Source of the DNA: a virus
Length of the DNA: 40,390 nt
Reading direction: 5' to 3' (one strand)
IMG/VR virus record: IMGVR_UViG_3300045240_000185
Span: 1-40,390 of that record
In this document: positions 3,249 through 26,700 of the stretch, piece after piece
How the letters are laid out: each line of letters starts with the position of its first letter
Numbering within the stretch: the stretch's first letter is position 1
Notes under the pieces: generated by a model
Seen by the model: the letters and a program-made list of their open reading frames with translations, nothing else
Told to the model about the DNA's origin: nothing
The model's database searches: none
Position numbers and translations under genes: made by a program

Positions 3249-3452
3249 ATGCCCAGAAAACTCGCGCTGCCGCCCATGGTCGAGGTCACCTACGTTCGCA
3301 GCGCGGACGATGAACTGCTCTATGTCGAAGCCCTGAGGCTCATCGCCGGCTGGATCCGCGAAGACCGGGCACGCCAGGATCAATCTGTAGTACAATCGAA
3401 CACATGGCACCCAGACCGCCAGCACGCCGACGAACAACCCTCGGCCCGCTAA
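3249..3452 (+). CDS. Small protein upstream of and overlapping the integrase gene (67 aa)
   Basis: The start is set at ATG 3249 because its distance from the 19-bp element (32 bases) matches the other operon; an in-frame ATG at 3219 would add ten residues. The sequence MVEVTYVRSADDELLYVEAL followed by RLIAGWIREDRARQD looks like a compact strand-helix protein with a charged helix. The last 49 bases overlap the integrase gene in another frame. Function unknown; a directionality or accessory role is possible from position. Confidence 0.5.
   Translation: MPRKLALPPMVEVTYVRSADDELLYVEALRLIAGWIREDRARQDQSVVQSNTWHPDRQHADEQPSAR
3391..3396 (+). promoter_or_regulatory. Candidate -10 box for a leaderless integrase transcript
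   Basis: TACAAT ends seven bases before the integrase ATG at 3404, inside the overlapping small gene. No Shine-Dalgarno sequence precedes the ATG, which supports a leaderless start. The -35 region is weak. Confidence 0.45.
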
Positions 3453-5361: not shown

Positions 5362-5439
5362 ATGACTATGTCTGTGCCTGAGCAATGCGATCGCGCTGGT
5401 TGTCAGGCGACGATCGCCACCTTCTGTCCTCTCACATGA
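5362..5439 (+). CDS. 25-residue peptide resembling a truncated AN1-type finger
   Basis: ATG 5362 opens a short frame with PEQCDRAGCQATIATFC, ending at a TGA that overlaps the HNH start (ATGA). Its Cys pattern (C-x4-C-x7-C) matches the first half of the AN1-like protein at 5926-6135 (PQTCERSGCQKPVETWC), and DNA similarity is visible too. It looks like a duplicated or interrupted copy cut off by the HNH gene. It may now serve only as a translated leader. Confidence 0.45.
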   Translation: MTMSVPEQCDRAGCQATIATFCPLT

Positions 5440-5951
5440 CGTTCACGTGCCCGATCTGCGGACGAACGCGGGAGTTCACCCCATCCCGGATTAACAGGCA
5501 ATACACGTGCGGGGGCGATTGCCGACGAGCGCGGCTTGATCGCGCACGTGACCAGCGCTTCTGGTCAAAAGTCGATAAGACCGCATCGTGCTGGCTTTGG
5601 ACCGGCTATGTGAACAACCATGGCTACGGGGTATTCGGCAGACATCGCCAGACGCAATATGTCCACCGGTTCGCCTATGAACGGTTGGTTGGCCCCATTC
5701 CTGAAGGCCTGGAATTGGATCATTTGTGCCGCACGCCCAGTTGCGTCAACCCTGAGCACCTGGAGGCAGTGACACATCGAGAGAACTCCCTCCGTAGTGA
5801 CAGCCCTCATGCGAGGGAGGCCCGTCAGACGCACTGCATCCATGGGCATCCGTTCTCCAAGAGCAACACCTATGTGACCAAATTAGGAAAGCGCCAATGC
5901 CGCCAATGTGCAGCTCGGAGGATGCGTGAACGACGTCCCGCAAACGTGTGA
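5436..5951 (+). CDS. HNH endonuclease (homing type)
   Basis: This 171-residue protein is coupled by ATGA to the preceding peptide, which sets the start. It begins with a zinc knuckle (TCPICGR...CGGDC), then an HNH_3 domain: FWSKVDKTASCWLWTG, a VHRFAYE helix, LELDHLCRTPSCVNPEHLE with the catalytic His-Asn pair, and a C-terminal zinc-type module (HCIHGHPF...RQCRQC). Such enzymes nick or cut DNA and spread as selfish genes. It resembles the HNH protein at 15492-16241, including the C-terminal GHPF...RQCR block. Confidence 0.9.
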   Translation: MTFTCPICGRTREFTPSRINRQYTCGGDCRRARLDRARDQRFWSKVDKTASCWLWTGYVNNHGYGVFGRHRQTQYVHRFAYERLVGPIPEGLELDHLCRTPSCVNPEHLEAVTHRENSLRSDSPHAREARQTHCIHGHPFSKSNTYVTKLGKRQCRQCAARRMRERRPANV

Positions 5952-7147: not shown

Positions 7148-7630
7148 ATGAACCGTGATGAACTTCGATTTGCCAAGTACGTCGAGAAAACGGATACCTG
7201 CTGGTTATGGACAGGTGCGACCACGAACGGCTATGGGTCGTTCCGCGCGGGCAAGGTTATGGCAGGTGCGCATCGTTTTGCCTGGGAATGGGCTCACGGG
7301 GAAGCAATACCAGAGGGGATGGAAATTCACCACGTGTGTCGTACGCCCAGATGTGTCAACCCAGCACATCTGGAAGTCACCACCCGCCGCCGTAATCTGC
7401 AACAGCGCAGATATGACTCATGGCGCGAGTTAGCCGGTCCCGCTGGTGGCGTTGAGGCCGAACTTGTAACAGTGACGCTGAATTCCGAGCAATCAGCCTG
7501 GGTTCGCGCCCGAGCAGCCGAGACGAACAGTCCCGTTCAGGACGTGGTAGAGCGGGCCGTATACCGATACATTCGCGGGCTGCTCAAGGATGAAGCGCGC
7601 AGACTTTCGGCTAAATCCCGGAATGTCTAG
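7148..7630 (+). CDS. HNH endonuclease fused to an RHH-like C-terminus
   Basis: This 160-residue protein has an HNH_3 domain at about 8-90 (YVEKTDTCWLWTG, AHRFAWEW, MEIHHVCRTPRCVNPAHLE). The C-terminal part (about 103-145) reads LVTVTLNSEQSAWVRARAAE followed by SPVQDVVERAVYRYI, a strand-helix-helix as in RHH DNA-binding proteins. The RHH part may give site specificity or autorepression. It sits between two small genes of the accessory operon, as expected for an inserted homing gene, and overlaps the following gene slightly. Confidence 0.88.
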   Translation: MNRDELRFAKYVEKTDTCWLWTGATTNGYGSFRAGKVMAGAHRFAWEWAHGEAIPEGMEIHHVCRTPRCVNPAHLEVTTRRRNLQQRRYDSWRELAGPAGGVEAELVTVTLNSEQSAWVRARAAETNSPVQDVVERAVYRYIRGLLKDEARRLSAKSRNV

Positions 7631-10377: not shown

Positions 10378-12519
10378 TTAAAGGAAGCGCGTCTGTGCAA
10401 TGGGAAAACCGCGCAGGTCACCGATACGGGTGCCGCGCGTGCGGCCGATCACGCCCAGGATCTCGATGATGCCGAACTGGGTCGCGTTGATGTCCAGCGC
10501 CCACGCCTGCCCCCCGAACGCCGAGTGCGCCACCATGCGTTCGGTGTAGTCGAACAGCGCCACGTTGAGGATCGTCTCGTCGGGGAACTCGAGCGCGACC
10601 GTGGCCGGCGCCGCGGCAGCCTGCATGACCATGTCACGGATGAAGCGGCCGCTCTGCCGAATACTCGCCCCGTCACGCCGCGCGACGAAATCCTGAGCGG
10701 CCACCGAGAAGGTGAAGTCCCGGCGGAACTGCGGCACGAGCCGCTCGTGGAGCCCCACCCCCTGCAGCACCATGCTGCTGGCCGTGCTCGCCGAGCTCAT
10801 CGTAATTTTGAGCTCGATGGCGTTGCCCGCGATCGACTGCCCGAGATCCTGACGCTGGCCGTTGAAGGTGAACGGCGTGTCCCAACTGATGAAGTCGCTG
10901 GTGGGAGGAGGCGTGGTCGGCGGCATGCCCGCGGAGCCGCGCAGACGGTAGCTCAGGTCGACCTCGGCGCCTTGCGGGAACCACGGGCCGAAGACGCTGG
11001 CGCCGACGAACTGTTTGTTGTCGGCCTGGAACATGGCGTGGTGCAAGGGCACGACGACATAGCTCGGCCCCAGGGTGAACTCGGCGCCCGAGTCGGGCGT
11101 CAGCGGGAACGGCACCAGTTTGATCCAGTCGTAGCCGCCGTCGGCGAAGCCGATGTAGAGCCGCGCGTCGGAGGGGATGTTCGAGACCCACAGCGCGGTG
11201 GCCTTGCGGCCGGTCCAGTGCGCGATACACCCATCCCACTGGTCGGCGAAACTGTAGCTGGTGCCCGTGTCGGTCTGGCCCGGCTCCCAGTTGCCGTACG
11301 TCAGCAGGTAACTGGTGTTCTTCGCGGCGTTGTAGATCACGCCGAAGGCCATCTGGCTGTTCCAGCCCTCGAACGCCTGGACGGGGCCTTTGACCTCGCT
11401 GATGTTCGAGAGCGCGCGGCCCGGCCCTTCGGCGGTAAGCACCGCGCCGCCCTGCATGTCGAGACGCCAGAAGGCGTGGTCGGTCCGAAACCACAGGCTG
11501 CCCTGCCACGCGGACGCGGTGCGGGCGTTGTCCGGATCGACGGTGCTCTGCAGGCCCGGAAACAGGTCGTTGTCCGACCCGTCGCCATTGGTCGTAAACA
11601 CGTCGCCATTGGCTTTGAAGATGCACAGACGGTTGGTGGTCTGACGGATCGCGGTGATCGGGATCGACGGGTTGCCGATCAGGATCGGCCCCGACCACGA
11701 GCCGGCGACCTTGGGATCGTTGGTGCATTTGCGGATGACGCAGGCGGCCGAGTCGGCGGCCCAGAGCTCGTCGCCGACGATCTCGAGCAGGTTGGCCGAG
11801 AACCCCGCGGGCAACGCGCAGGTGGTGGTCACGCCGGCCGCGCGCTCCTGCAGCACGCCGTCGTTCCACGCCACGTAGAGTGCGTCGACGGCTCCCGCGT
11901 AGGCTCCCTTGTAGCGGGCCGCGTCAGTGGCGATCTGGCCGGCGCGGGTGATCACGGCTGCCTGGCCCGTATTGGTGTCGTCGTTGCGGACCAGGACATT
12001 GGCCCCGGCCAGAATGAAGACGGCCAGCGTGCCCGAGGCGTTCAACGCCTCGACGAAGCGGCGCACCGAACCCGTCGCGGGAGGCACGATCGGATGCACC
12101 AGCGGTCCCTGGCCGAACAACCCGCCGGTGACCCAGCAGTCCATCGCGTAGTGGTAGCGGTGGTCGGTATTCGAGGACTGCACGCTTTCGCCCATGCCGC
12201 CCGTCGGCTTGAACATGAACGTGCGTTCCTTATAGATCGGCGCCGAGTCGTAGTCCTGCGCCGGGGGGAAGTAGGGATCGACCGGTTTCTGCTTCTTCCC
12301 CACCAGCAGGCCCGTCTGCCCGGGGATCAGCATCAGTCCCTGGCGGAAGATCTGCTGCGCGGTGGTCTGGCGCGTGTGGCCGATCAGTTGCGGCCGCAGT
12401 TGGCCGATCGTCTTCGGCCGCAGGTCGCCGATGGTGTGCGGTCCCGTGATCGGCTGGTCCATCAGGCCCAGTCGAAGGTCCCATGGCCAGGGACGGCGGC
12501 GCGACGACAGGGTGGGCAT
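10378..12519 (-). CDS. Tail nozzle / tubular-protein-B-like structural protein (713 aa)
   Basis: A basic N-terminus with repeated IGDLRP/IGQLRP/LIGHTRQ motifs is followed by a long strand-rich body with repeated Trp, Gly and Asp turns (GVLQERAAG, DELWAADSA, GSLWFRTDHAFWRLD). This suggests a beta-propeller like the tail nozzle (T7 gp12 type) of podoviruses. The motif returns at the C-terminus (IGDLRGFPIAQTRFL), so the two ends may pack together. Position after the connector and before the fibre supports the role. No enzymatic motif is seen. Confidence 0.6.
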   Translation of the reverse strand: MPTLSSRRRPWPWDLRLGLMDQPITGPHTIGDLRPKTIGQLRPQLIGHTRQTTAQQIFRQGLMLIPGQTGLLVGKKQKPVDPYFPPAQDYDSAPIYKERTFMFKPTGGMGESVQSSNTDHRYHYAMDCWVTGGLFGQGPLVHPIVPPATGSVRRFVEALNASGTLAVFILAGANVLVRNDDTNTGQAAVITRAGQIATDAARYKGAYAGAVDALYVAWNDGVLQERAAGVTTTCALPAGFSANLLEIVGDELWAADSAACVIRKCTNDPKVAGSWSGPILIGNPSIPITAIRQTTNRLCIFKANGDVFTTNGDGSDNDLFPGLQSTVDPDNARTASAWQGSLWFRTDHAFWRLDMQGGAVLTAEGPGRALSNISEVKGPVQAFEGWNSQMAFGVIYNAAKNTSYLLTYGNWEPGQTDTGTSYSFADQWDGCIAHWTGRKATALWVSNIPSDARLYIGFADGGYDWIKLVPFPLTPDSGAEFTLGPSYVVVPLHHAMFQADNKQFVGASVFGPWFPQGAEVDLSYRLRGSAGMPPTTPPPTSDFISWDTPFTFNGQRQDLGQSIAGNAIELKITMSSASTASSMVLQGVGLHERLVPQFRRDFTFSVAAQDFVARRDGASIRQSGRFIRDMVMQAAAAPATVALEFPDETILNVALFDYTERMVAHSAFGGQAWALDINATQFGIIEILGVIGRTRGTRIGDLRGFPIAQTRFL

Positions 12520-12527
12520 TTCTCAGA

Positions 12528-13259
12528 CTACGCCGTGGTGTTGTTGGTGATGATGCCCTGGCTCTGCAGCGCGACCAGCAGGTCGGTCAGCACCGTGCTG
12601 CGGATCATGCCGCGGCGTCCGCTGATCGCCAGTGGTGTCGGTGTCCAGGCAGGCCCAACCGCCCCGGCGGCTCCCTGCGGCCCCGTCGCGCCCTGAGGCC
12701 CGGTGAGTCCGGTCGGGCCGGCAACGCCCGGATTGCCCTGCGGCCCGGTCGCTCCAGGGGAGCCCTGTGGACCGGTGGAACCCTGAGGACCAGCGACCCC
12801 CTGGCTGCCGGTCGGGCCGGCGCTACCGGTCGGCCCCTGCTGGCCAGTATTGCCGGTGGCTCCCTGCGGACCGGTGGGTCCCGGAATCCCCTGCGGACCC
12901 TGTGGTCCGACCGGGCCGAGCGGACCGGCTGGGCCGCCGAGATTGCCCTGGTATTGCCACACGGCCGCGTTGATGACGTTGGAGGTCAACAGCCAGTACT
13001 GGTCGTTCCACGCGTTGAGCCACAGCGTCCCGACACTCAGGGTGTAGTCCTGGGGCAGCGGATTGCGCGTGTCGACGACCCAGCCCGGGCCGAGCGAACC
13101 CTGTGGTCCTGGCTGGCCCTGAGGACCGGCTGGTCCCGCCGGGCCAACCGGCCCCACCGCGCCGGGTTGCCCCTGCGGGCCTGGCGGTCCCTGCGACCAC
13201 GACGGCGGCCCGGCAGGAACGCCGAGCACGCTGCCGTTGATGACCGCGGGATCAATCAC
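12528..13259 (-). CDS. Collagen-like virion fibre protein (243 aa)
   Basis: Start GTG 13259 overlaps the TGA of the adaptor gene (GTGA). Two blocks of Gly-x-y triplets (about residues 18-56 and 93-200, of the form [16 protein letters not shown]) flank a compact domain with [21 protein letters not shown] non-collagen C-terminal helix ([19 protein letters not shown]) probably sets the trimer. Collagen-like stalks are common in phage fibres and give a thin triple-helical shaft. Confidence 0.85.
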
Positions 13260-14176
13260 CGATTGACCCACGTGCGGCTGCCGCTCCACCGCAGGGTGCT
13301 CGGCCGTAATCCGATGCTCGAGCGGAAGCCGATGGTGGTCGGCCGACTGGGGCCGAACATCCGCGCCTGGTAACTGAACTCGGCCGCGGCCATCACCTGG
13401 GTGGCCTGCGTGCCGCCCGCGGCCGCGGTCATCAACCGTGCGGGAAAGCGGTGCCAGGCTTCGATGTGGCCGGCGGCCGCGGCGTAGTCGAGGTCGACGT
13501 CGAGCACGTCGCTGTCGAGGGTTGGCCCGCTCGAGTCGAGGCCGTTCACGCGCGACCAGGCCGGCCGCCACACGCTGAGCCACATCGACACGGGCGCCGC
13601 CCAGTACGCGCTGCCCATCAGGATGATGTGGCCGCCCTGAGACACGGCCTCGAAGGGCGCGTCCGTCCACGGCTGCAGCCAGCCGTACTGGACGCGATCG
13701 ATCTGCCACGGGTCGGTCAGCCACGGCAACTGGGCCGTCACGTCGATGCCGCCGTACTGGGCCGTCGGCTGCACCTGGATCAGGTCGGGCAGGAAACAGC
13801 GCCGCAGCCCGGCCAGGACGGCCACGCGCAGCTCTTGCTCCGGGTTCAGGTGGTGGAACTCGCACACCTCGCCGGGTGAGGGGATGGTGCCCCACGGGTG
13901 GTCGGGATAGACGCGGCCCATGTCGGGGTCGTAGCTCGCGACCAGCCGCTGACGGTCGACGACGTCGAGCGTGATCGGCGTCCCGTCCCAGGTGACGCCG
14001 CGGCGCAGCAGCCACAGGTTAGTGACCGAGTCGAGGTCGATCTGCGACTGCAGCATGGGGAACGAGACGAAGGTGAACTGCGCGGTGTTCGGGATCTGCC
14101 GATCCGTGAACGCCGAGGAGTACGGCCCCAACCGCCGCGCGGTGTCCTGCTCGAGCTGTGCGAGCGTGGTGCTCAC
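13256..14176 (-). CDS. Head-tail adaptor / tail-tube-A-like protein (306 aa)
   Basis: Start GTG 14176 overlaps the previous stop (GTGA). The N-terminus [20 protein letters not shown] is typical of connector proteins that begin with a helix of this type. [16 protein letters not shown] middle and a helical C-terminal half ([20 protein letters not shown]) follow. Size and place between the capsid group and the nozzle gene match a gp11-like ring protein of podoviruses. No catalytic motif is seen. Confidence 0.6.
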
Positions 14177-14409
14177 GTCTTCGCCCGTTTCTCCCTATCC
14201 GTTTCTGTCTCCGTCTGGGACGCGGCCTGCGTGGCTGGTGGGGTCAGACCGGTGGAGTCGAGGATCTCGACCTTGCCGTCAACCCACAGGCTCCTGACGT
14301 ATTCAATGTCCTCGTCGCTGAAGTCGGTCTCGTGCTGCGGGCCGTAGACGATGCCCTCCTGGCCGGGGCGCGGATCGGCCGCAGGCGCCAGGAAACGCAC
14401 TCTCGCCAT
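14173..14409 (-). CDS. Small DGK-motif protein A (78 aa)
   Basis: ATG 14409 shares a base with the previous stop (TAATG). It has the pattern VRFLAPAADP..., an acidic middle (DFSDEDIEYVRSLW) and VDGKVEIL, then an acidic, Thr-rich tail. The same pattern occurs in the next two small proteins upstream, so these appear to be paralogous virion-assembly proteins. Confidence 0.65.
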   Translation of the reverse strand: MARVRFLAPAADPRPGQEGIVYGPQHETDFSDEDIEYVRSLWVDGKVEILDSTGLTPPATQAASQTETETDREKRAKT

Positions 14410-14693
14410 TACTTCTTCCCCTTTTTCGTGTCCTCGGGCTCGAGCGGCTTCGTGTCGCTACGCCCCGTGCGGTCGCCATACTCACCGGTGGACTCGACGT
14501 CCTCGCGACCGGTGCGTTCGCCGTAGTGGCCCGCCTCGGCGACTTTCGCATTCGCCGCTTCGTCGGTAAGCAGGCTGACCTTGCCGTCGGCTTTCCACGC
14601 GGCGGCCTGTTCGTCCGTCGTCTCGAACACGGTGCCGGGGGCGATCGGTCCCTCGGCATCCTCGAGTGGCGCCAGTGCGCGGACTGCGGTCAT
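14409..14693 (-). CDS. Small DGK-motif protein B (94 aa)
   Basis: ATG 14693 overlaps the previous stop (ATGA). MTAVRALAPLEDAEGPIAPG leads to EQAAAWKADGKVSLL, matching protein A. The tail has two related YGERTGREDVEST / YGDRTGRSDTK units and ends in a basic KKGKK. Function unknown; a capsid- or connector-associated role is suggested by position. Confidence 0.65.
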   Translation of the reverse strand: MTAVRALAPLEDAEGPIAPGTVFETTDEQAAAWKADGKVSLLTDEAANAKVAEAGHYGERTGREDVESTGEYGDRTGRSDTKPLEPEDTKKGKK

Positions 14694-14860
14694 CTGGTCT
14701 TCCCCCTGGTTTTTGTCGTCCCGGCAGCCTTTGCCGTCACTTTACGGCTGACCATCGGCGGAATGTAGGGCGGCAGAGCCGTCGCGCCGGGGGGCGGTCC
14801 CTGCGACGGCGACAACGGATTAGGCGTAAGTTTGGGCTTGGCAGTTTTGCGGACGGGCAT
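14690..14860 (-). CDS. Small basic Pro-rich protein (56 aa)
   Basis: ATG 14860 overlaps the previous TAA by one base, and its TGA overlaps the next ATG. It begins MPVRKTAKPKLTPNPL, has a Pro-rich centre (GPPPGATALPPYIPP) and ends with basic residues. It looks disordered. It is part of a run of very small late genes after the capsid. Confidence 0.6.
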   Translation of the reverse strand: MPVRKTAKPKLTPNPLSPSQGPPPGATALPPYIPPMVSRKVTAKAAGTTKTRGKTR

Positions 14861-15027
14861 TACGTCTTCTTGCCCTTTCTGGCGGGAAGCTTGTTCTCTT
14901 TGACGCCTTTGAGTTTCTTCTGGGCGTCGGTGGCGTCGAAGCCCGGCACGCCACCACCCGCGGCCAGCCCGAAGAACCTGGCTTGAGCTCGGCTCACCGG
15001 GCGTTTATAGGGTCGTCCGACGGGCAT
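14860..15027 (-). CDS. Small basic protein (55 aa)
   Basis: ATG 15027 to a TAA overlapping the next start. VSRAQARFFGLAAGG followed by KLKGVKENKLPARK resembles short phage proteins with an S-(K/R)-A-Q-x-x-(F)-F-G start and an LP-x-(R) end found in structural regions. The exact role is unknown. Confidence 0.6.
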   Translation of the reverse strand: MPVGRPYKRPVSRAQARFFGLAAGGGVPGFDATDAQKKLKGVKENKLPARKGKKT

Positions 15028-15030
15028 GAC

Positions 15031-15444
15031 TCAGACCGTGGTGAACGTCGCGTCCTGCGACAGGGTGACGGCCGTGCCGACCGTGACAGTGATGCGGTAG
15101 TGGTAGAGCGTCGCGGTGGTCAGGCCAGTCAGGTTGGCCAGGATGGCGCCCGAGCCCGAAGCAGGCGTCGCCGCCTGATTCGAGCCGTACGCCGTGGTCG
15201 TGCCGTAGTTGACCGCCATCGCGGTACACGGCTGATCCACCGTCCAGTTGACCGTGGCGGTCGTGGCCGCGATGGGCGTGACCGACTGGCCGCGCACCGT
15301 CGCGCCGGCGAGCGAGAGCTTGCCGTCGCGCAACATGGCGCGCACGGCATTCTCGTCGGTCACGGTGGCCTGATCGCCCACGCCGTGGATCAGCGTGGGC
15401 GTGGTCGGATCCTGGACGCTCGCCAGGAAGATGACGCTACTCAT
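15031..15444 (-). CDS. DGK-motif protein C with a fibronectin/Ig-like domain (137 aa)
   Basis: From ATG 15444 the N-terminal part (VIFLASVQDP ... ENAVRAMLRDGKLSLAG) is the third copy of the small DGK-type domain. The C-terminal part (about 50-137) is a fibronectin-III/Ig-like strand domain: ATVNWTVDQPCTAMAVNYG, LTGLTTATLYHYRITV and a closing DATFTT. Ig-like domains commonly decorate capsids. An HNH gene lies between it and the capsid gene on the other strand. Confidence 0.7.
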   Translation of the reverse strand: MSSVIFLASVQDPTTPTLIHGVGDQATVTDENAVRAMLRDGKLSLAGATVRGQSVTPIAATTATVNWTVDQPCTAMAVNYGTTTAYGSNQAATPASGSGAILANLTGLTTATLYHYRITVTVGTAVTLSQDATFTTV

Positions 15445-15491
15445 CCTGGCCTCAACCAATATCCATATCTAGTCATGCAACAATCGTTCCT

Positions 15492-16241
15492 GTGACTCTG
15501 GAATCAATCGAATATTCAGCTCGTTTACTGGCAGCGTTGCCGCCTCTCAGCGAAGCCCTGGGGCGTCCACTTATTCCGACCATGGATAGTTGGATCATAT
15601 GGAGCCGTTTCTGGCAACAGGTTATGTGCATGGTCAGCACGCGCTGCTGGGTGTGGACTGGCAAGGTAACCAGTGATGGATATGGACGCACACGCGCCCG
15701 TGGACCGGATGGAGGTGTCGCGATGGCCCACCGTCTCATGTTCACCTGGCTGGTTGGACCAATTCCGCTCAACATGACTCTTGACCATCTGTGCCGCAAT
15801 ACCGGGTGCGTGAACCCTGAGCATCTCGAGATCGTCGATCGTGGCGAGAATGCTCGACGAGCTCGAACGAAGGACCGTTGTGTTCGTGGGCACCAACTGA
15901 CATCCGACAACGTTGTGCCCATGAGCAATGGCGGTCGCCGTTGCCGAATTTGTCGCGATTCGTACTACGCAAGGAACAACGAGACGGTACGTGCGCAGAG
16001 ACGCTCGAGGTACGAGCAGCGAGTAGGGCGCCCGGTACTGCTCCCCGTAGGAGAACGAACTGAGTGCAAGTGGGGTCACCCGTTCGACGAGCAGAACACG
16101 CGGTATACGAAAACGGGAATGCGCCAGTGCCGCGCATGCGGCAACCGGCGCGACCGTGAACGTTATGCGAATGACCCAACTCGCAATGCATCTGTCAAAG
16201 CCAGGGCTAAAGCTGCAAAAAGTACCACGCAGAATGCGTGA
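15492..16241 (+). CDS. HNH endonuclease (homing type) inserted downstream of the capsid gene
   Basis: The HNH_3 domain (WVWTGKVTSDGYG, MAHRLMFTWL, LDHLCRNTGCVNPEHLE) is followed by two zinc-type repeats, each a C-x2/3-GH...RRCRIC or RQCRAC block, and a basic tail. GTG 15492 opens the frame; ATG 15582 (MDSWIIWSRF) is a likely alternative start. It runs against the late operon, between capsid and DGK protein C, and resembles the HNH protein at 5436-5951. It is probably a selfish insert. Confidence 0.88.
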   Translation: MTLESIEYSARLLAALPPLSEALGRPLIPTMDSWIIWSRFWQQVMCMVSTRCWVWTGKVTSDGYGRTRARGPDGGVAMAHRLMFTWLVGPIPLNMTLDHLCRNTGCVNPEHLEIVDRGENARRARTKDRCVRGHQLTSDNVVPMSNGGRRCRICRDSYYARNNETVRAQRRSRYEQRVGRPVLLPVGERTECKWGHPFDEQNTRYTKTGMRQCRACGNRRDRERYANDPTRNASVKARAKAAKSTTQNA

Positions 16242-16251
16242 TCAAATGCAA

Positions 16252-17259
16252 CTAACCCTCACCTCCAACTGCCGCCTTCTGCTGCACCACCCCGAACGGG
16301 TACCGGGAGGCTTTGGTCGGCTGTTGGCGATTTACGGGATTTGGAACTGCCCATGCAAAACGCGCGATCACACGGAGCGCCACCATGTCCTGCTGGAGCA
16401 GGTTGAACTGGATCACCGGCGGGCTGCCGTTGTCGGTGATGACGCCCGTGTCGAAGAGCTCCATGCTGATGTCTTCGCGAATCGCCAGCATGCTCTGGTC
16501 CCACTGGCCCATGATCATCGAGTAGTTGGCCGCGCCCGTGACGTAGCCGCTGAGGCCCGCGTTTGAGAAAATGATCGGCTCGCCGTACAGGCTGCCCGTG
16601 TCGGCTGACGCCGTCGGGGCCGTGTCCGGATACCACAGCAGCTCGTTGGTGGTGGCGCGCAAGCCGCGCAGCTTGGACTTGACCTGGCGCCGTGCCCAGA
16701 ACCCGGTGATGTCGAAGCCGTCGGCTTCCACCGAAGCCATGGCCGCGTTGACGTCGGCGAGGTAGTCGGGCGTGGTGGCGCCGGCGATGATCAGGTTGCC
16801 CGCGGCCGACGCCGAGGCGACGATGCTGGTGGGGAAGGTGGACGGCGCGTTATTTCCAAAAAAAATCGCTTCATCTAACGCCACGCCAAACGCTTCGGTG
16901 ACCTTGGGCTTGACCTGGGTCCAGAAGTCGTAGTCGATGTCGTCCAGCAGGTTCTTGCTGATCGGCACGATGACGGCCATCTCCTCGGCGTTTAAATAGA
17001 CGTTGTCCCAGGCCAACTGAGTGGTCTGCTTCATGCCGATGTCGCGCGCGTCCAGGCTGGCGCCCGTGAGCCAGTACGCCACCGGGAGCTGGCTCATGAC
17101 CGGGATACGCTGCTGCGCGCGCTTCATCGTCGTGTGCGGCATGAGCCGCATCGCCGCTGACTTTTGTTCGACGGACTGGACGATCTCTTTCTGAACGTCC
17201 TCGGGGATTAATGGACCTGTGCCGGGGGTGGCACGAGTGGATATCGTGTTATATGGCAT
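16252..17259 (-). CDS. Major capsid protein, HK97-fold type (335 aa)
   Basis: The start is ATG 17259 (MPYNTISTRATPG). Typical HK97-family features appear in order: MPHTTMKRAQQRIPVMSQLP, AEEMAVIVPISKNLLDD (the E-loop/P-domain junction), VALDEAIFFGN, and a C-terminal ALRVIARFAWAVPNP segment. The protein has no long delta domain; a separate scaffold-like gene lies upstream. The Shine-Dalgarno before its ATG is weak, perhaps because an HNH gene has been inserted 16 bases upstream. Confidence 0.92.
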   Translation of the reverse strand: MPYNTISTRATPGTGPLIPEDVQKEIVQSVEQKSAAMRLMPHTTMKRAQQRIPVMSQLPVAYWLTGASLDARDIGMKQTTQLAWDNVYLNAEEMAVIVPISKNLLDDIDYDFWTQVKPKVTEAFGVALDEAIFFGNNAPSTFPTSIVASASAAGNLIIAGATTPDYLADVNAAMASVEADGFDITGFWARRQVKSKLRGLRATTNELLWYPDTAPTASADTGSLYGEPIIFSNAGLSGYVTGAANYSMIMGQWDQSMLAIREDISMELFDTGVITDNGSPPVIQFNLLQQDMVALRVIARFAWAVPNPVNRQQPTKASRYPFGVVQQKAAVGGEG

Positions 17260-17275
17260 TGTCACACCGTGGTAG

Positions 17276-17935
17276 GTGCTGTACCCTGAGGTTGTGCAGA
17301 ACAACGAACTCTGGGCGCCAGCACCCGGCTGGGAGGGCTTGTACGAAGTTTCGGATCAGGGGAACGTCCGACGAGTCGCTCCCCGAGTTGACTGGAAAGG
17401 CGAAAGCACTCGCGTTCACTCGGTTACGGGTCGGCAAATTGGGCAGAACCCGCTTCGGTTGTTGCGCCCCATGTTGAAGAGCAACTACTTGCAGGTCTCG
17501 CCCACCCGTGGCAACGGGTCGACCAAATGGGTGACTGTTCACAGCCTGGTGGCGCAGGCGTTTATCGGACCACGTCCGTCGCGTCGTCATACGGTCAACC
17601 ACATCAATGGCAACAAGCTCGACAACCGTGCCGAGAACCTCGAGTGGGCGACCAATCGCGAACAGCAACACCACGCCGCTGGCCTTGGCAGAAAGCGTCA
17701 CGCCGAGTTCCAGCGACTCACGGATGACCAAGCGCGCGAGGTCTACAACACCATCGGCCAGATCTCTGGGCGCGAGTGGGCGACGCGGCTTGGTGTGAAC
17801 GCCGTCCTGATTTCTTCCATCAGAACCGGTTCTACCTATCGCTGGGCTACCGGTGCCCCGCCAAACAAACGGCGCGGCCAGTGGTTCCCGTGTACTGAAG
17901 AATGCGAGTGTCGCTGTCATCAGCGAAGAAAATGA
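17276..17935 (+). CDS. NUMOD4-HNH homing endonuclease inserted upstream of the capsid gene
   Basis: The first 25 residues hold the NUMOD4 motif (ELWAPAPGWEGLYEVSDQG), which often forms the DNA-binding front of phage homing enzymes. The HNH_3 core reads VHSLVAQAFIG and HTVNHINGNKLDNRAENLEW. A helical DNA-binding-like segment (about 145-190) and a Cys-rich end (CTEECECRCHQ) follow. GTG 17276 opens the frame; GTG 17294 fits the domain start as well. It lies between scaffold and capsid genes on the opposite strand. Confidence 0.9.
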   Translation: MLYPEVVQNNELWAPAPGWEGLYEVSDQGNVRRVAPRVDWKGESTRVHSVTGRQIGQNPLRLLRPMLKSNYLQVSPTRGNGSTKWVTVHSLVAQAFIGPRPSRRHTVNHINGNKLDNRAENLEWATNREQQHHAAGLGRKRHAEFQRLTDDQAREVYNTIGQISGREWATRLGVNAVLISSIRTGSTYRWATGAPPNKRRGQWFPCTEECECRCHQRRK

Positions 17936-17943
17936 TTCCTTTC

Positions 17944-18678
17944 TCAGAGTGAGCGTCTGGAGCCCAGTTGGCCTCGAAGCAAGTTCGAGACGTTCTTGTC
18001 ATTCGCCGAGGGAGCGCCACTGCCGATGAACTCGGGCTCGCTCATGCCCCGGCGAAACTCGTTCAGGACCTGTTTGCGGAAAGCGGGGTTGCGACGCAAC
18101 TTGTCTTCCGCGTCTTTGGCGCCCTCGGCCTTCCAGTGTTTTTCCAGGGCTTTGAGCCCTTCTTCGACGATCAGTTTGCGCCCCTCGAGACCGAGACCCG
18201 CGCCTTCGATGGCCATGATGCGGTTCCGCTCGGCCTGAGGTAAGGCCAGCACCACCGGGTCGACCGTGAAGCGGTCGTGGGTGGCGCCGATGTTGCCGAG
18301 GATCTCGCCGTTCTGCTGGTCGAGGTGAGCGATCTGCTCGGCCTTGCGCTCTTCCTCGGCAAAGGCCCACGGGTCTTCGTCGCGGAGTTTGCGGCGTCGC
18401 TCGGCCTGAGCCTGGGTCGCGCGTTTGGCTTCGCGGCGGTCCGTCTCGGCCTGGACCCGACGATCGAGCTCCTCCTGCGTCAGCGTGATCGCGCTGGACG
18501 TCTGAGGCTCGGGCTCGGGTTGCTCCTCGGGCTCGAGCTCCTGGCTCCCCCGTCCGTTGCGGAACAACCGCTGCAGGAAGGTGCGGGAAGCCGGTCGGCT
18601 CTGCTCGGAAGAAACCTCGCCTGCCTGAACATCCGCGGATGACTCGGCGCTCGAAGGCTCTGGTGCTGCTGGTTGCAT
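17944..18678 (-). CDS. Scaffolding-like protein (244 aa)
   Basis: It starts at ATG 18678 with GAGGA upstream. The N-terminal third is acidic and Glu/Pro-rich; a long charged coiled-coil follows (EELDRRVQAETDRREAKRAT and AEERKAEQIAHLDQQN), then a helical C-terminus (RRNPAFRKQVLNEFRRG). This composition and place just before the capsid gene fit a scaffold protein. No protease domain is seen. Confidence 0.65.
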   Translation of the reverse strand: MQPAAPEPSSAESSADVQAGEVSSEQSRPASRTFLQRLFRNGRGSQELEPEEQPEPEPQTSSAITLTQEELDRRVQAETDRREAKRATQAQAERRRKLRDEDPWAFAEEERKAEQIAHLDQQNGEILGNIGATHDRFTVDPVVLALPQAERNRIMAIEGAGLGLEGRKLIVEEGLKALEKHWKAEGAKDAEDKLRRNPAFRKQVLNEFRRGMSEPEFIGSGAPSANDKNVSNLLRGQLGSRRSL

Positions 18679-18690
18679 CGTAATCGATCC

Positions 18691-20763
18691 TCAGAAACTC
18701 GGTTGGTACGGGGGCATGACGGCTCCCTGCGCGAGGCCGCGGAAATCCTGCTGCGGAGCGGCCCCGTACCCCTGCTGCAAGCCAGGGAAGTACGGTCGTT
18801 GCGCCGTCTGGACTTGAGCCGGAGCAGCGGCAGCAGCCTGAGCCGGAGCCTGGTGGTTGATGGTCACCGTGCCGTCTGTGGCGATCGTAGTCGTGACGCC
18901 CGGCTGATATTTATCGCGCTGCAGGGACTGGGTGTAGTCATAGGGCTGTTGCTGCTGGCCGAACGCGGGAGCTGCCTGCACGCCGTGGGTGTCGTTCATG
19001 TTCTGGGCGGCCGTGGGCGACAGGTGCGCCAGCGCCTGATTCGTCACTTGCGACGCCAGTTGATTGAGGTCGGGCATCTGGTACGTGAGCGCACTCGACC
19101 AGTCGATGCCCGTCGCCGGCTTGCCGCTGCTCCACGCGTCGGCGAGCTGACCGAAGGCTTTCCCAAAACCCGGCCCCACCATGTTGGGCAACTGGGCCTT
19201 GTAGGCCTCGACGGCGTTCTGGCCTGACTGCTGGGCCGTCGCGAGGTTGAGGCGCTGTTGCTCGCCGGCCTTCTGCTCGAGCTCCGTCTGCTTCTGCTGC
19301 TGGGCCTGGGCGATCTCGGCTTTGGCCGGCTCGATGCTCGAGTCCCACCAGTCGTTGAACTGTTTGTCCGCGGCGGCTTCGGTCAGCGCGCCGCTCACGA
19401 CCTGGGCGTGGAGGTCCTGCTGCTTCTGCTGCGCGGTCTGCTGCAGTTGACGGACACGGTCGCCGACGTTGGTCGGCGTCCAGTTCAGATTCTTCTCAGG
19501 CGGCAGCAGGGTCCCGTCCGGAGCGCGCCGCTGCGGCAGGAACTCGTCCGTGCCCGCGCCGGTGACGGTGGTCGGCTGGGCAATGCCCGGCACGGTCATG
19601 GTGCGCGGCGGCTCGCCGTTCGGCCCCGGCTCGTAGGTGTACGAGCCGTTGCCGTCGGCAGTGACCTCGATCAGTTTGTCGGGACTGCTGGGCAGCGGAA
19701 CCCAGTACTTCTCGCCCTTCGGCTTGATCGCGCCTTCGGCACGGGTGGTGGTCGGGCTGACAGGCTTCTGCGGCGTGTCCGTGTCGTCGTGCCAGGCGCC
19801 GTTCAGGTAGACCTGATGCTTGGCGTAGCCGCCGCCGGCGTCGATCCACTGCTCGTCGTTGTCGTTCGGCGAGGCGACGCCGGTGACCCTGACCAGGTCG
19901 GGCTCGCCGGGCTGGCCTGCCTTCGGATTCGTCTTGTAGATCGTCCCGCCGACGGTGGTGGTCTGGTTCGGCGCGTTCTCCGAGCCGTACTCGGGGATGT
20001 CCTCGATCGCCTGCGTCTGGGCATTCGTGCCGACGTAGATCAACTTGCCGTTGCGATTGATTTGCTTGACGCTGCCCGGGACGTACTTCGCGGTGTTGAT
20101 CGGTGGCGGCGCCCCCGGCACCGGCTGGAGCGGCTTGCCGCTCGGATCGGTACCGACCCAGATAAGGTGACCGCTGCCGTCGTCGACCTGCTTGATGTCG
20201 TTCCAGCCCTTCGGTGTGGTGCCGAGACCCTGGGGCTGGTTGGGCATCTTCTCGAACGCGCCGGTGGAGCTGTTGGTGCCCCACAGCTCTTCGTGGCCGT
20301 CGTTGAACTGCTCGCGCTGAATCCCGGTGTAGCCGCCCTGTTTGGTGTCGATGGTGCCCTGGGGCGATCGATCGGTGATCGTGTACGAGTACCCGCTGGC
20401 CGCGTCACCCTGGCGCCCCATGGTGAGTTTGAGCATCTGGTTCGTCTGCGGGTTGACGACCCCGATGACGTAGTCGGCACTGGGCTGCACGATGAACGGC
20501 GGCACGCCCTTATTGAGTTCGTCGAGGTCAGCTTGCGTCGCGCCAGGGATGCTCTTGTAGGCCGGGTTGGGAACCGTCCGCCCCTGGTTGACCGGCTGGT
20601 GGCTGGCGCCCGCGATCTGCCAGCCGTCAAGACCGGCCGCGCGCAGCGCGGTGTTGATCGTCTGCCAGTCGTACAGGTCGGAGCCCGGGGTTGGCGGCGC
20701 CTGGACCTCTGGCCCGGTCCTGCGGGGGGTGGTGTCAGCAGGCTGTTTGGTGACGTCGACCAT
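18691..20763 (-). CDS. Putative internal virion / ejection protein (690 aa)
   Basis: Start ATG 20763 with AGGAG upstream. The first two-thirds are Gly/Pro/Thr-rich, with repeated strand units of the form GKLIYVGTN / GHLIWVGTD, perhaps a repetitive beta-structure. Residues about 430-560 form a Gln-rich helix (QQTAQQKQQDLHAQ, QAQQQKQTELEQKAGEQQ). The tail is Gln/Pro/Ala-rich. It lies between the giant ejection-type protein and the scaffold, a usual place for internal head proteins of podoviruses. The family is not recognised. Confidence 0.55.
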   Translation of the reverse strand: MVDVTKQPADTTPRRTGPEVQAPPTPGSDLYDWQTINTALRAAGLDGWQIAGASHQPVNQGRTVPNPAYKSIPGATQADLDELNKGVPPFIVQPSADYVIGVVNPQTNQMLKLTMGRQGDAASGYSYTITDRSPQGTIDTKQGGYTGIQREQFNDGHEELWGTNSSTGAFEKMPNQPQGLGTTPKGWNDIKQVDDGSGHLIWVGTDPSGKPLQPVPGAPPPINTAKYVPGSVKQINRNGKLIYVGTNAQTQAIEDIPEYGSENAPNQTTTVGGTIYKTNPKAGQPGEPDLVRVTGVASPNDNDEQWIDAGGGYAKHQVYLNGAWHDDTDTPQKPVSPTTTRAEGAIKPKGEKYWVPLPSSPDKLIEVTADGNGSYTYEPGPNGEPPRTMTVPGIAQPTTVTGAGTDEFLPQRRAPDGTLLPPEKNLNWTPTNVGDRVRQLQQTAQQKQQDLHAQVVSGALTEAAADKQFNDWWDSSIEPAKAEIAQAQQQKQTELEQKAGEQQRLNLATAQQSGQNAVEAYKAQLPNMVGPGFGKAFGQLADAWSSGKPATGIDWSSALTYQMPDLNQLASQVTNQALAHLSPTAAQNMNDTHGVQAAPAFGQQQQPYDYTQSLQRDKYQPGVTTTIATDGTVTINHQAPAQAAAAAPAQVQTAQRPYFPGLQQGYGAAPQQDFRGLAQGAVMPPYQPSF

Positions 20764-20774
20764 GGGGGTTTCTC

Positions 20775-23700
20775 CTACGCTGCCGATGACTGCTTCAGGT
20801 AACGCTGCGCCAGATTAGAACCGCTCTCTCGAATCTGGCGCATGACGTGGGCAGCCGCCAGTTCGCGCGCGTCGGTCATCGCCTGCTGCCGCAGCGAGTC
20901 GCGCACGGCTGGATTACTGAACGCGTGCAGGTCCATGTAGCGTCGTATCTGCTGATCGAAGTACTGGTTGGTCAGTCGCTGGTACTCGGCCTGCTCCTCC
21001 TGGCGCAGCGGAATCTTCTGGATGTCGGACGGGACCGAGCTCGGCTCGTACGTATCGCCGAGGGCGCGCATCTGGCGGCGAACATCGGGTGCCATCATGG
21101 CATCGGGCGTGGTCAGGTCCTGCCATTGCTGCCCCCCGGTGCCGCGCACGAAACGGCTGGCCAGACTCCCCACCACGGGGAGTTCCGACGCGGTGCCGGG
21201 TACCCGCGGCGCACGTTGCGCGAGGTAGTCCGACAGATTCAGCCCCTGCTGGCCGAGCCCGTTCAAGAGGTCTTTGATCGCGAAGTCGACCTGTGACGGA
21301 CGCACGCGCGCCGACGACATGCCCGGCAGTTGAGTGACGGCATCCTCGAGCGCGGGCGCCACCGCTTTGCTCAGGCTCGACGCGTTCTCGTCCGAGAACT
21401 TGTTGGCGATCGTGCTGTCGCGATACCAGTCCTTGTTCGCCGACAACTCGGCCAGGGTGCCCGGTCCTGGCGGGACGAAGCCGTAGACCGAGCTCGCCAC
21501 GCTGTTGCGGCTGCCCGCGTTGATCGGACTGAGCTCCTGCGTCAGCGTCGAGGCCAGTTCGCCTACATCCCGCGGCTTACCCTGGTCGGGCACGCCGCGC
21601 ACGTCCTGGATGTGGTGGAACGCTTCGCGGCCCGCTTCGACGAACGGCATGAACTCGTTCGGGATGGGGATCAGAATCTTCTGCGGGTTGCGGTTGCCGT
21701 TGGCGTCACGCGGCGCCTCGCCCGGCACCATGAGGACGATGCCCTGCTTCTTCAGATAGTCGGGCACGTCCTCGTAGTCTTTGGCGCGCTGCGGGTCAGA
21801 GTAGTTGTACGCCTCGGTCGCGGACGCGGGCGCGCCGAGCAACGTCAATCCGGCGAAGGCCGCGCCGGCGGGATGCTCTTTGAGCAGACGCCCCAGTTGC
21901 GCGGGCGCCTGCGTGCCTACATTAAAGAAGGGCACATAGCGGTTGATCTCCTTGCTGAGACGGCCACCGCGACTGAAGTCGGTCGTGCCCTCGCGTGCCT
22001 GGCGCATGGCTTCGAGCGGACTGCTGCCACGCGCCAGCTCCATCTCGCGCGCGGCGACGCGCGGCACCTGCTCGAAGCGATTGCCGAGCGCCTTGACCCA
22101 GCCGAAGGCGGCCACGTCATTCAGCAATTGCTTCAGGTCGCCTCGGCCATTGACGGTCAGGACGTTCCGTACGCTGACCGCGTTCTGGCGCGTCAGTTTG
22201 CGGAGCTGCTCCTGAGCCTGGGACTGGGTCATCCTGGCGCCGGCGCCGCCACTGCCCATGCCTCCGCCGGCGGCCTCGAGCGCGCGCACGCCTTCGCCGG
22301 TCATCCGCCCGCTGCCGGTGCCGCGCATCGCATCGGCGAACGCGAGCAGATACGCCCGTGCCGCGCTCGGCCCCAGGCCCAGGTTCTTGCCGATGCCGAT
22401 CCGCGTGCCCATGCCGAGCGCCAGCGCGGCGGCGATCTTCTGGTTGCGGTTCGGATCGTCGTCCGGGGTCATCGCCGCGGTGACCGCCGCCGGCCCCAGG
22501 TGGAGACCGGTGCTCACCAGATTGCCGGGGATGCCGCGAGCGCCACCCGCGGCCGTCTGCCGCGCCGCATAGGTGTACGCGTCACGCACGAGGTTGACCC
22601 CCTGGAACGCGGGGTTGCGCTCGGTGGCCGTGGCCCTGACGATCTTCGCGGGCGCCTGCAGGATCTTCTGCATCACGCTCGGGTCGCCAGTCTGGGCCAT
22701 CTGGTCGAGCGCGGTCTTCAGCAGTGTGTTGCTGGTGACGTAGTCCTTGCGGTCACCGTTGATGATGCCCGTGACCTTCTGCTCGTCGCCCCTGAGCGGG
22801 TAGTCGGGGTGCAGCAGCGGGCCGTTCTTGCCGCCGGAGTCGACGTACTCCCTGACGTTGTCGGCGACCCTGCGCATGACGGTGCTGTCGTTGCCGAAGC
22901 CCTTGACCAGCGCGGAGGTGACGTCGTTCTTGGCGATGCCCGACTTGTGCGCGTAAGCCTCGCGGATCATCGCGGCGACGTGGTTCTCGTGCTGCAACGA
23001 CGAGCCCTCTGGCGTGTAGGTGTGCAGCCCGGGGTCAGCGACGTTGAACGAGCTGCCGCGCTGCAGTCCCATGCCCGGACGTTCGTCCGACATGAAGTCA
23101 GTCATGTGGGTGGGGGTCCAGAAGTCGTAGGTCTTGAGCAAGCCGTCCATCTTGGCCTGCGGCAGCAGTCCGTGGTCGACCTTTTCCTGCAGCATCTGCT
23201 TGCGGAAGTCCTGCAGCGCGGTCAGCCCGTCCTGCATCTGCTGCCACTTTTCGGGCTGGTTGCGGTACTTGTCCTGGAGATCGGCGAGGTGCTGCATGAT
23301 GTCGTCGTAGTGCCAGGTCTCGCCATTGGGGCCGGCGAACTCGCGACCGTGGAGCTGGGCCAATCCCTGCGCTCGAGCCGCGGCGGGTACGTCCGCGTGT
23401 GCCTGCTGCACGTCGGCGAAAGCTTTCCTGACGCGGTTCTCGGCAACCGCCACGTCATTCGCCAGGCCCCGCTGACCGCGGGCCTGGGCTGCCTGGAGCC
23501 GCTCGAGGTTCTGCTGCTCGTAGCGGAGTTTGACGCTGGCGCCCGCGTACTCGGGAGTGGGGTTGTAGCGCGGCTGTTGCGCGGCGGCCCGGTCGGCAGC
23601 AGTCTGGGCGCGGCCTTCGATCACGGCGCCGCGCCTGGCCGAGGATTCACCCATCTGTGAACGCAACTGGCTCGCCCGGTCCTCGGCGCGCCCCACCTGC

Positions 23701-26700
23701 CTGGCCAGCGTCTCGAGGTACGGGCTGTCGGGATTGCGGGCGTAGAGTCGGTCGTACTGCTGGTTCAGGCGTCTGGCGTTGTCCTCAGCAATGCTCAGGT
23801 CGCGGTACTCGGGCAGGGTGGTGACCTTCGAGCCCGGAGCGGTCATGACCTGTTCACGCGCGGCGTCCGCGTTCGCCTGGCGCGCCACTTCGGCCGCGGC
23901 CTCGAGCTGCGTCCGCGCCTCGTCGACGCGGGCCTGTGCCGTGTTCAGGTTGATCTGTCCGCGCGTACGGGGATTGGCGGCCTGGGCCTGGGCCTCGTCG
24001 AGGACGTTCTGTGCCACGTTCCAGTTCTTCATCGCGGTGGTAAGCCGTTGCTCGGTACTCGGGGCAATGCCCGCCTCGAGCGCCTGCTGCTCGACCTGTT
24101 TGGCCAGGCCTTCGGCGACGGACTGGTTGGTGCGATGCTCGACGAGGTTGTAGAAATCCGGTAACGCCTGGTCGCCGATGGCCCGCAACTGCGGGCCGAT
24201 AGCGTGCTCCACCATGTTCTCAGCCTGGTGGGTGGGGTCCACGCGCGCGAGCAAGCCGACGCGCTCCGTGTCCGTGAGCGGGCGACCCAGTTTCTGGGCC
24301 AGGGCTTTTTCGATGTTGTTCAGGTCGGTGCCGCTATCGGTCAGGTTGCGCACCGACGTGTCCCAGGCTTGCTGGGCACGGGTGCGACTGAGCCCGCTGG
24401 CCACGCTCTGCTGCCCCTGGGTGGTGAGTTGCTGGATCGGGCTATTGCCGCCGCTGAACACGTTCGACGGCAGCGTCTCGCGCGTGGTCACCGTCGCGTT
24501 GGGAGTCGTTGCCGTGACCGATTCGCCCGGAGCAGCGCGAGCGCCACTGAACGCGGTCTCGGCGGCGGAGGGTTGTCCCGCCGACCGCAGCGCGTCGATT
24601 ACGTCGTTGGGCGTCATGTCCGGGGTGATCCGCACGCCATTCTCCTCGGCGATGCGGCGGACGTTGTTGCTGATAAAGCCCGGCACGCCTCCGCGATCCG
24701 CGGCGTCGATCAGTTGCTGGGCTTCGGTGGTGAGTCGGGACGGGGCAGCGGTTCTCGCGCCAGCGTCGCCGACGGCTCGGGCAACGCCACCCCCCAGGTC
24801 GTCGAGTGCCGAGCGAGTGATGCCACCGGTCAGCCCGCGGGCCTGGGCTCCCGCTTCGCGCTCGAATACCTGGTCGAGCGAGCTCGCGGCCCGTTCGGGT
24901 GCGCCGCGCTCGAGCAGGCGGCTGAGTCCTGTCACGTCACCGAGACCGTGGAGAGCCTGACCGATCGGCTCGAGCATGTCCGGGATGTCCATGCGCGGGT
25001 CGTTGCCGAGACGGGGGTCGAAAATGCCGAGACCGCCCGGCCCCATGCTCGGCCGCGGCAGGTTCATGGCCGTCGCGCCGGCGCGGTCGACGGCTTCCTT
25101 GAGCGCGTCGGCGATCGACATGTTCTTCAGGTCCGGCGGCAGCAGGTCCGGCACCCCGGTGAAGTCGCTGACTTTCCGTCCACCGGGCAGCGTCTGGATC
25201 TGCTCGATCATTTGCCGCGCGCGGGACCCCACGTCTGTTGGAGCGGGCTCGGCGGGTTGCTGCTGGTCCTGCTGGTTGCCCGAGCCTTTCGGACCAAAGC
25301 CGCCGGGGCCGCCGAGCGCGCTCTGCAGCGCGCTCTGGATGGCGTTGCCGATCATGCTGCCCAGGTTGTCGAGCGGGTTGCCGCTCGAGGCTACCGTCGA
25401 CGGCGCCTGGTCGAAGACCGACAGGTAGCCGGGGCGCTGTTGCGGTGATGGGCGGTTCGCCGTCTGCACGGCCTGGTCGAGCTGCTGGAGCGCGGGATCC
25501 GGGCTGCGCCCGAAGTCGGTCATTGCCTGTTTCGGGATAGGCGTGCCGGTCAGATCGGCACTGAGTGCCTGGCGCGTCTGATCGAGGTGGTCGGCTGGCG
25601 GCGCGCTGCTGGAGGTGGCCGGCACGCTCGGGTTATTGGCGAACAGGGCGCCCTGCACCGGACCCATCAGGCTCTGCATCTGCGACAGCGTCATCCACTC
25701 GCTGCCGTTCTTCAGGTCGAGGCCGCTCCGTCCGACGTGGAACTGCTGGGTCTGCGGGTTGTAGCCGTCGGCATAGAAGTAGTGGCCGCTGGTGCTGATG
25801 GTCACCGGGTTCCCGGTCTGGGCTTCGCGCGCGATCGCGTCCGAGTTCGCCCCCACCAGTCGGGTGGGCACGCCCATCTTCTCGAGCAACTGCTGCTCCG
25901 AGGCGATGCCGGCCATGCCCTGGCCAGGGGTCCAGCCCACGGTTTTCGCCAGGTCGGTCGCCTCTCTTAAGGTGGGGTTGCGGCCGTACGCCTGGGCAAA
26001 GCGCACGGCGGCAGCCGGGCCGCACGCCGCGTAGGCCTCATCGCTGGTGAGTTGCGGGTCGCCGAACTGGCTCTGCGCCATGGCCGTCGGCTGCGGTCCC
26101 GCCGTCGTTTGTGATGGCGGTGTGACGGATGACGGAGTGGGTGCCGGCCCGGTCTGGTTGGGGCGGCTCGAGCCGAGGATGCGGGCGACGTAGGTTTGCG
26201 ACTCCTGGTAGGGCTGGCCCGCGTCCCAGGCCGAGACCGCTCCCCCGCCGCCGTTATAGGCGATGAGCGCTTTCGACCAGTCGCCGCCGTACTGCTTGAG
26301 CAAACTGGCCATCAGGTTGGCCGCGTAGTCGAGACTGGCTTTCGGGTCCCACGTGTTCACGCCCGGGTGGTACTGGGGCACGATCTGGGCGATGCCCTGG
26401 GCGCCCGCCTGCGAGCCGGCGTTGGGGTTGTAGCCCGACTCCTGCTGAATCTGGGCGGCGAAGATCTCGGGATTGATACCCGCTTTCTGCGCCGCCTGGC
26501 GCGCGTAGTTCTGCAGGTCGCCCTGGGGCGCGGCATTCAGCGCCTGCATGGCAGGCGAGGTGGGGTCATAGCCGACGTTCTGGCTGCCACCACCCCCACC
26601 GAGCGTGGGCGGGACGTATTTCTCGGGCGTGCCGGGGGCGAACGGCCCGGTGGCCTCGCCGCCGAACGGGCTCTGTGTGGGCGGCTGAACCGTCGGCGGC

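Follow-up and report, generated by a model that had tools for sequence, protein, structure and literature searches.

The virus sequence that we analysed, hereafter the window, is a stretch of 40,390 bases from a phage known from sequence data only. Its major capsid gene occupies positions 16252–17259 on the minus strand, starts with an ATG at 17259, and was identified by a Pfam Phage_capsid match (E 2.5e-27) and as the PHROG major head protein. An HNH gene lies on the plus strand on each side of it. HNH1 (15492–16241, plus strand) sits in the gap between the capsid gene and the gene downstream of it (site B). It matches the Pfam families HNH_3 (40.7 bits) and zf-His_Me_endon (27.8 bits) and carries Cys/His repeats. 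HNH2 (17276–17935, plus strand) sits in the gap between the capsid gene and the gene upstream of it (site A), matches HNH_3 (47.9 bits) and NUMOD4 (31.1 bits), and starts at the GTG at 17276 or possibly at the GTG at 17294. PHROGs agree with the Pfam assignments for HNH1, HNH2 and the capsid gene. The stops of HNH1 and the capsid gene are 10 bp apart, the starts of the capsid gene and HNH2 16 bp, and the stops of HNH2 and the upstream gene 8 bp.

We refer to the upstream gene (17944–18678, minus strand) as scaffold and to the downstream gene (15031–15459, minus strand) as decoration. Both names are positional, because neither gene has a family match above cut-off in Pfam or PHROGs; the fn3-like matches of the decoration gene are weak and below cut-off. 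A preliminary description of this DNA had claimed that HNH genes of two types bracket the capsid gene, both antisense to it, and separate it from its neighbours. The open reading frames (ORFs), strands and Pfam domains bear this out, each HNH gene lying in one flanking gap between the capsid gene and a neighbour named by position only.

The window contains four HNH_3 genes, all on the plus strand, the further two at 5385–5951 and 7148–7630. It also encodes a serine recombinase (Resolvase; 3404–5254, plus strand) and a 2137-aa protein with SLT transglycosylase, C39-like peptidase and LPD38 domains (20775–27188, minus strand). No tyrosine integrase match was found in the window. A DNA search of annotated phages with positions 12000–21000 gave no match. 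The nearest annotated phages by capsid protein are Arthrobacter phages (~41%), and a genome scan returned 27 loci only, at 34–48%.

Occupancy of the two capsid flanks among relatives

We collected the best 80 of 98 relatives from a capsid search of IMG/VR. Nine more (L326, L349, L351, L358, L366, L367, L368, L371 and L373) came from a subsequent profile search, giving a total of 89. The set includes four near-identical locus pairs (L010/L075, L012/L013, L040/L041 and L048/L049), and the contigs of some relatives stop before one of the two sites. Searching the 80 records with HNH_3 gave 26 matches in 21 records. Site A held 10 antisense and 2 sense HNH genes (L048 and L049), site B held 6, all antisense, and the 8 matches away from the two sites were all opposite to the capsid gene. 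The nine added records contributed 3 more matches, also all opposite to the capsid gene (site A in L326 and L371, elsewhere in L368; orientation read by hand). Across the 89 relatives, 27 of the 29 HNH matches thus oppose the capsid gene, with L048/L049 as the sole sense lineage; these orientations are not independent events, because homing preserves orientation, and a hand count by class and site gives about 9 antisense to 1 sense. Of the nine HNH genes found elsewhere, eight were inspected for their neighbours: six adjoin and oppose homologues of minus-strand genes of the window, and those of L108 and L113 have ambiguous neighbours.

The two sites hold different nuclease classes. All 11 distinct site-A proteins scanned have NUMOD4 together with HNH_3, whereas NUMOD4 occurs in none of the 7 site-B proteins scanned, site B holding other HNH types. 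The only cross-match between site-A and site-B proteins in BLASTP at 1e-3 covers 64 residues, between L041 and L002. On a capsid tree of 78 rows, from which the nine added loci were excluded, occupancy changed at least nine times at site A and at least six times at site B. The preliminary description had reasoned that relatives with the same HNH genes on the other strand or elsewhere would indicate simple random insertion. We found instead that occupancy is site- and class-specific with one sense lineage, though 9 of the 29 matches lie outside sites A and B. The insertion pattern at the capsid ends is not random. A sense LAGLIDADG-like ORF, just under the Pfam cut-off, lies at site B of one relative (L043 4776–5177).

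Both sites are filled in the window and in L023, so that an essential gene is flanked by nuclease genes at both ends. Most occupied relatives have one site filled, and most relatives have neither. Near twins of the window include empty, half-filled and swapped flanks: site A is empty and site B holds another HNH gene in L002; site A is empty and site B holds an HNH gene at 42% to HNH1 in L003; site A holds an HNH gene at 49% to HNH2 and site B is empty in L004; and both sites are empty in L073. We also checked 40 of 80 loci with relatives of HNH2 in other phages. A Phage_capsid match was present in six of these 40 records. Of these, L118 duplicates the phage of L023, and in the other five the capsid gene is at least 3.4 kb away.

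The HNH genes at both sites appear intact. All 16 ORFs lack internal stops and keep the HNH residues; the genes of L049 and L371 are short (124 aa as read). For five of six HNH pairs dN/dS was 0.07–0.19, at dS values of 1.8–4.0, which are saturated.

These genes thus recur at two sites, each of which takes its own class; both empty and swapped alleles occur, dN/dS is low, and the antisense orientation is nearly constant. We consider it probable that HNH1 and HNH2, both free-standing, are homing endonuclease genes and that each end of the capsid gene is a fixed landing site for such genes. When a relative without the HNH gene co-infects, the nuclease would cleave its capsid gene, and repair of the break would copy the HNH gene in, along with adjacent capsid sequence. 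The capsid leader and start codon fall within site A, and a homing event at this site would therefore exchange the translation start of the capsid gene as well. A small promoter of its own would drive each antisense HNH gene, with transcription running counter to the structural operon.

A comparable arrangement is known from phage T4. There, the free-standing homing gene segD, of the GIY-YIG type, separates the major capsid gene (gene 23) from gene 24; the segD portion of that account reports that the gene opposes capsid transcription, calls it the sole exception to co-orientation in T4, and states that no promoter was found for it (PMC2988022). The genes described here likewise are free-standing homing genes beside the major capsid gene and antisense to it. 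Unlike segD as presented there, which lies on one side only, they are of the HNH type and occupy both capsid sides in the window, many have promoter-like boxes, and antisense orientation is the rule in this phage family.

Translation and promoter signals around the capsid gene

The preliminary description had also proposed that the HNH genes weaken the capsid Shine-Dalgarno sequence. The sequence is indeed weak in the window, whose duplex (-3.0 kcal) is the weakest of 78 rows, but this does not generalize, as other occupied relatives have strong Shine-Dalgarno sequences (-8.4 kcal in L010 and -10.7 kcal in L055).

TANNNT-type boxes serve leaderless genes in high-GC hosts. We scored a box when TANNNT stood 5–9 nt before an in-frame start, and found one in 12 of 28 HNH genes, whereas none of 180 starts of late genes (scaffold, decoration and two more) had one; the p value of 5e-14 is overstated, because some candidate ranges were set by hand and the copies are related. 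The boxes occur in 12 of the 21 HNH genes without the hairpin leader described below and in none of the 7 with it. No candidate start was found for L371 in this count. The box is absent before the sense HNH gene of L049 and before the window genes at 5385 and 7148. In HNH2, TACCCT (17282–17287, plus strand) lies 6 nt before the GTG at 17294 and would be a leaderless-type promoter box. AACAAT (15479–15484, plus strand), 7 nt before the GTG at 15492 of HNH1, is one base off TANNNT; it was noted by eye and is not counted. No sigma-70 type promoter was found in the window. We found nothing on point about leaderless HNH genes in open-licence papers.

These signals bear on the possibility that the HNH genes are maintained for their control of the capsid gene, whose expression would be lowered or timed through antisense transcription and through the absence of its usual leader. 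Their orientation, the promoter-like boxes directed against the late operon and the weak Shine-Dalgarno sequences of the window, L012 and L013 agree with such a role, which we nevertheless regard as unlikely. Most relatives, without an HNH gene at either site, still keep the capsid gene, HNH classes swap freely, and Shine-Dalgarno strength ranges from weak to strong in occupied relatives. Moreover, site-B genes converge with the capsid gene and cannot touch its leader.

We compared the aligned first codon of the capsid gene (xPYN) in 87 genes, comprising the window and 86 relatives (78 rows plus the nine added loci; L078, L080 and L081 do not reach the codon). The codon is ACG in 25, GTG in 22, ATT in 19, ATG in 11, TTG in 6, ATC in 2 and CTG in 2, with three intron-bearing loci read by eye as ATT and L371 as ATC. 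Neither ATG, GTG nor TTG is present at this position in 48 of the 87 genes. Examples are ACG in L031 (9998–10000) and ATT in L073 (10001–10003), compared with ATG in the window (17257–17259). No ATG, GTG or TTG occurs from the upstream stop to about residue 11 in 45 of 77 capsid genes, versus 1 of 60 scaffold, 0 of 63 decoration and 0 of 59 g94 genes. The start codon requires 33 changes on the capsid tree. An AUU or ACG start, as these alignments suggest, would be surprising for the most abundant virion protein, and our search of open-licence papers for near-cognate starts returned nothing on point. The annotated capsid start of Arthrobacter phage ChuckDuck (L105 3968) lies 11 codons before an ATT-CCG-TAC-AAC (4001) that aligns with the first codon of the family, so the true start of that gene may be ATT.

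We dropped the claim that HNH insertion is "rescued" by an ATG capsid start. ATG was present in 4 of 11 antisense-occupied rows versus 2 of 65 empty rows, with support in only 1–2 of 7 independent pairs and none opposing, and L358, L366, L367 and L368 have ATG without a site-A HNH gene.

Divergent capsid ends and group I introns

Among the window, L002, L003 and L004, scaffold identity is 90–100% per 50-column block and decoration identity mostly 82–100% (77–86% in the first block of three pairs), whereas the capsid ends drop to 64–80% in several pairs. Between the window and L002 we counted 8 differences in 200 positions at the scaffold end, 14 in 57 over capsid nt 1–57, 11 in 288 over nt 58–345, and 59 in 257 over the last 260 nt. 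Two further pairs that differ at site A show 9 of 57 versus 14 of 288 beyond (L049/L072) and 16 of 57 versus 14 of 288 beyond (L074/L070). In the window/L002, L049/L072 and L074/L070 pairs, the divergent 5' block extends to nt 54, 48 and 54, and differences resume at nt 96, 70 and 109, respectively. No block end near nt 57 was seen in L004/L002 or L003/L002, which are divergent well beyond it (63 and 64 of 288).

Group I introns interrupt the capsid gene near this point in some relatives. Rfam detected them in L045, L071 and L074 (63–71 bits), after capsid nt 50 in our exon reading. Our custom model R1 detected one in L371 after nt 57 (133.6 bits), which Rfam did not report at E 0.1, and found no further convincing intron in 80 loci and the window; Rfam likewise found none in the window. 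The four introns (L045 9764–10002; L371 2741–3008; also L071 and L074) follow codons 16–19 and are ~240–260 nt in size. On the 78-row capsid tree, which does not include L371, the introns require at least three changes. In L074 and L371 an antisense NUMOD4-HNH gene lies just upstream of the intron-bearing capsid gene, and the intron is without a large ORF.

The nuclease gene, the intron point and the block ends converge within ~10 bases of capsid sequence, where we infer cutting. By comparison with relatives, the target of the site-A nuclease in the window would be capsid nt 48–57 (17203–17212, minus strand). The site-A class would thus cut near codons 16–19, at the intron point of relatives, as in collaborative homing, which pairs a free-standing nuclease with a neighbouring intron in the systems treated in the relevant parts of two papers (PMC10448857, PMC2988022). 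The upstream NUMOD4-HNH genes of L074 and L371 and the blocks that end near the intron point resemble those systems. The present case departs from those accounts in having the major capsid gene as its target and a nuclease gene that runs antisense. Cleavage at the intron point is predicted here, and the window is without an intron.

A 5' divergence block near the intron point is what collaborative homing would predict, and three close pairs that differ at site A clearly show one, with a weak wider control. In eight close pairs with both sites empty, capsid nt 1–57 differ at 0–6 positions, with a mild 5' excess in two (L051/L054 and L059/L061, p 0.02 and 0.03). Over 12 nearest pairs with an occupied site or an intron (5 of 17 were dropped as >15% divergent), divergence was 0.237 in nt 1–57 versus 0.090. 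The corresponding values for 33 untouched pairs were 0.202 versus 0.111, so the contrast is weak (Mann-Whitney p 0.02) and the capsid 5' end is variable in general. At site B, the window and L004 differ at 8 of the last 22 capsid nt and then nowhere until 82. The empty pair L062/L068 has similarly dense differences, and a co-conversion tract at site B is not convincing.

This mosaic can also be read as the trace of a mobile island. HEG-islands carry nucleases at both ends of an essential gene, as set out in part of the work of Barth and colleagues 2023 (PMC10448857). On that model the two HNH genes would mobilise the whole capsid gene as cargo. The capsid gene is indeed flanked at both ends, the interchangeable nuclease classes swap while their positions stay, and the capsid gene is mosaic among near twins. 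Unlike in the HEG-islands described there, however, the cargo is not the conserved part: in the four near twins the capsid ends diverge and the neighbours are conserved. Filling of both sites is also the minority state, most occupied relatives having one. We therefore think it improbable that the capsid gene moves as such a unit. Equally doubtful is that the HNH genes landed once and persist as inactive remnants without homing. In its favour, sequence alone cannot show homing and two of the genes are short, but the open frames with their HNH residues, the low dN/dS and the repeated gain or loss at fixed sites all speak against it.

In mycobacteriophage LittleE, an intron in the capsid gene holds an oppositely pointing nuclease gene, according to the section of PMC3706429 on this phage. 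A major-capsid intron and a nuclease gene pointing the other way occur here as well. In contrast to LittleE, the nuclease gene here lies free in the gap before the capsid gene and the intron has only the small size given above. The HNH bracket around the capsid gene is therefore a variant of what is known, since segD is antisense, HEG-islands bracket essential genes and phage capsid introns occur, as far as the cited parts of these sources describe them.

A hairpin leader before HNH and integrase genes

We looked for terminators around the HNH genes and rejected them as a general feature (3 found in the window versus 2.7 expected). A relaxed scan flagged 7 of 18 cassettes, versus 17 of 72 shuffled ones, as having a sense-strand hairpin with a T-run. 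Four of these seven were of one shape and led us to a hairpin leader, which we do not read as a terminator because the T-run is absent from other leader copies.

A structural scan of 374 loci recovered the shape four times in the family, at site B of L003 and at site A of L004, L023 and L371, together with one unrelated hairpin in L165/L166 and none in 0.5 Mb of shuffled sequence. A model built from these four (R2) matched before three HNH genes at other places in the family, in L108 (35.6 bits), L110 (25.1 bits) and L112 (19.9 bits). These three were accepted for their position; similarly weak R2 matches lie off HNH genes in L132/L133 (20.8) and L221 (19.1). The seven HNH leaders are at L003 2300–2351, L004 9886–9939, L023 1283–1334, L371 2598–2649, L108 2271–2322, L110 2311–2362 and L112 1725–1775. 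In the orientation of the HNH gene, they share two paired stretches of 7 bp and 4 bp with a bulge between them, followed by a loop, a GACACCACGGGAGG-like sequence and the start codon. Both partners have changed in six of the 11 base pairs (18 cells; 0 of 500 shuffles), a result favoured by the choice of four seeds for their pairing.

With a model built from the seven (R3), a search of 49 whole records returned the seeds and eight more matches at E 0.0012 or better. Of these eight, seven stand immediately before a tyrosine integrase gene (L374–L378, L380 and L381), and all seven face opposite to the capsid gene, as determined by hand. The eighth (L379) precedes ORFs without a family. An integrase gene is present in 9 of 25 records, two of which (G035 and G054) are without the leader. 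TANNNT occurs 2–11 nt upstream of all 7 HNH leaders and of none of the 7 integrase leaders, against a background of 5.3%. R3 found no hairpin leader in the window, and Rfam gave no leader match in eight leader-bearing loci at E 0.1.

We also ran R3 on 100 loci, almost all belonging to HNH relatives in other phages, and obtained L118, from the phage of L023, and seven weak matches. In L159 (2930–3004; 20.6 bits), TAGAAT, a bulged hairpin and a start codon lie directly 5' of the NUMOD4-HNH gene of another phage, so that L159 likely carries a leader copy outside the family. L221, L132, L133, L149, L156 and L120 were rejected as outside copies, being weak matches away from an HNH gene. Pattern-scan candidates were also rejected, namely L382, in the same record as L004, and three hits that are chance-like in coding DNA.

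The leader precedes HNH genes of different classes at several sites, accompanied there by a -10-like box. It raises the possibility, which we put forward tentatively, that the HNH genes are expressed as a group with the integrase and do not simply ride along with the structural operon. One shared factor, from phage or host, might act on the leader and switch the nucleases on early or in lysogeny and off late, with antisense placement as part of the control, and homing at site A might reshuffle the capsid start. We did not find in open-licence papers a leader common to HNH and integrase genes, nor the boxes or the capsid starts.

The relatives provide an ordered natural series, with capsid flanks that are empty, filled on one side, filled on both, swapped, or accompanied by an intron, for how homing genes settle around one essential gene. 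The series also bears on how HNH genes are expressed there and on whether intron and nuclease have one target. The leader that HNH genes share with integrase genes would be a directly testable surprise in phage gene expression, as would, separately, the capsid starts other than ATG.
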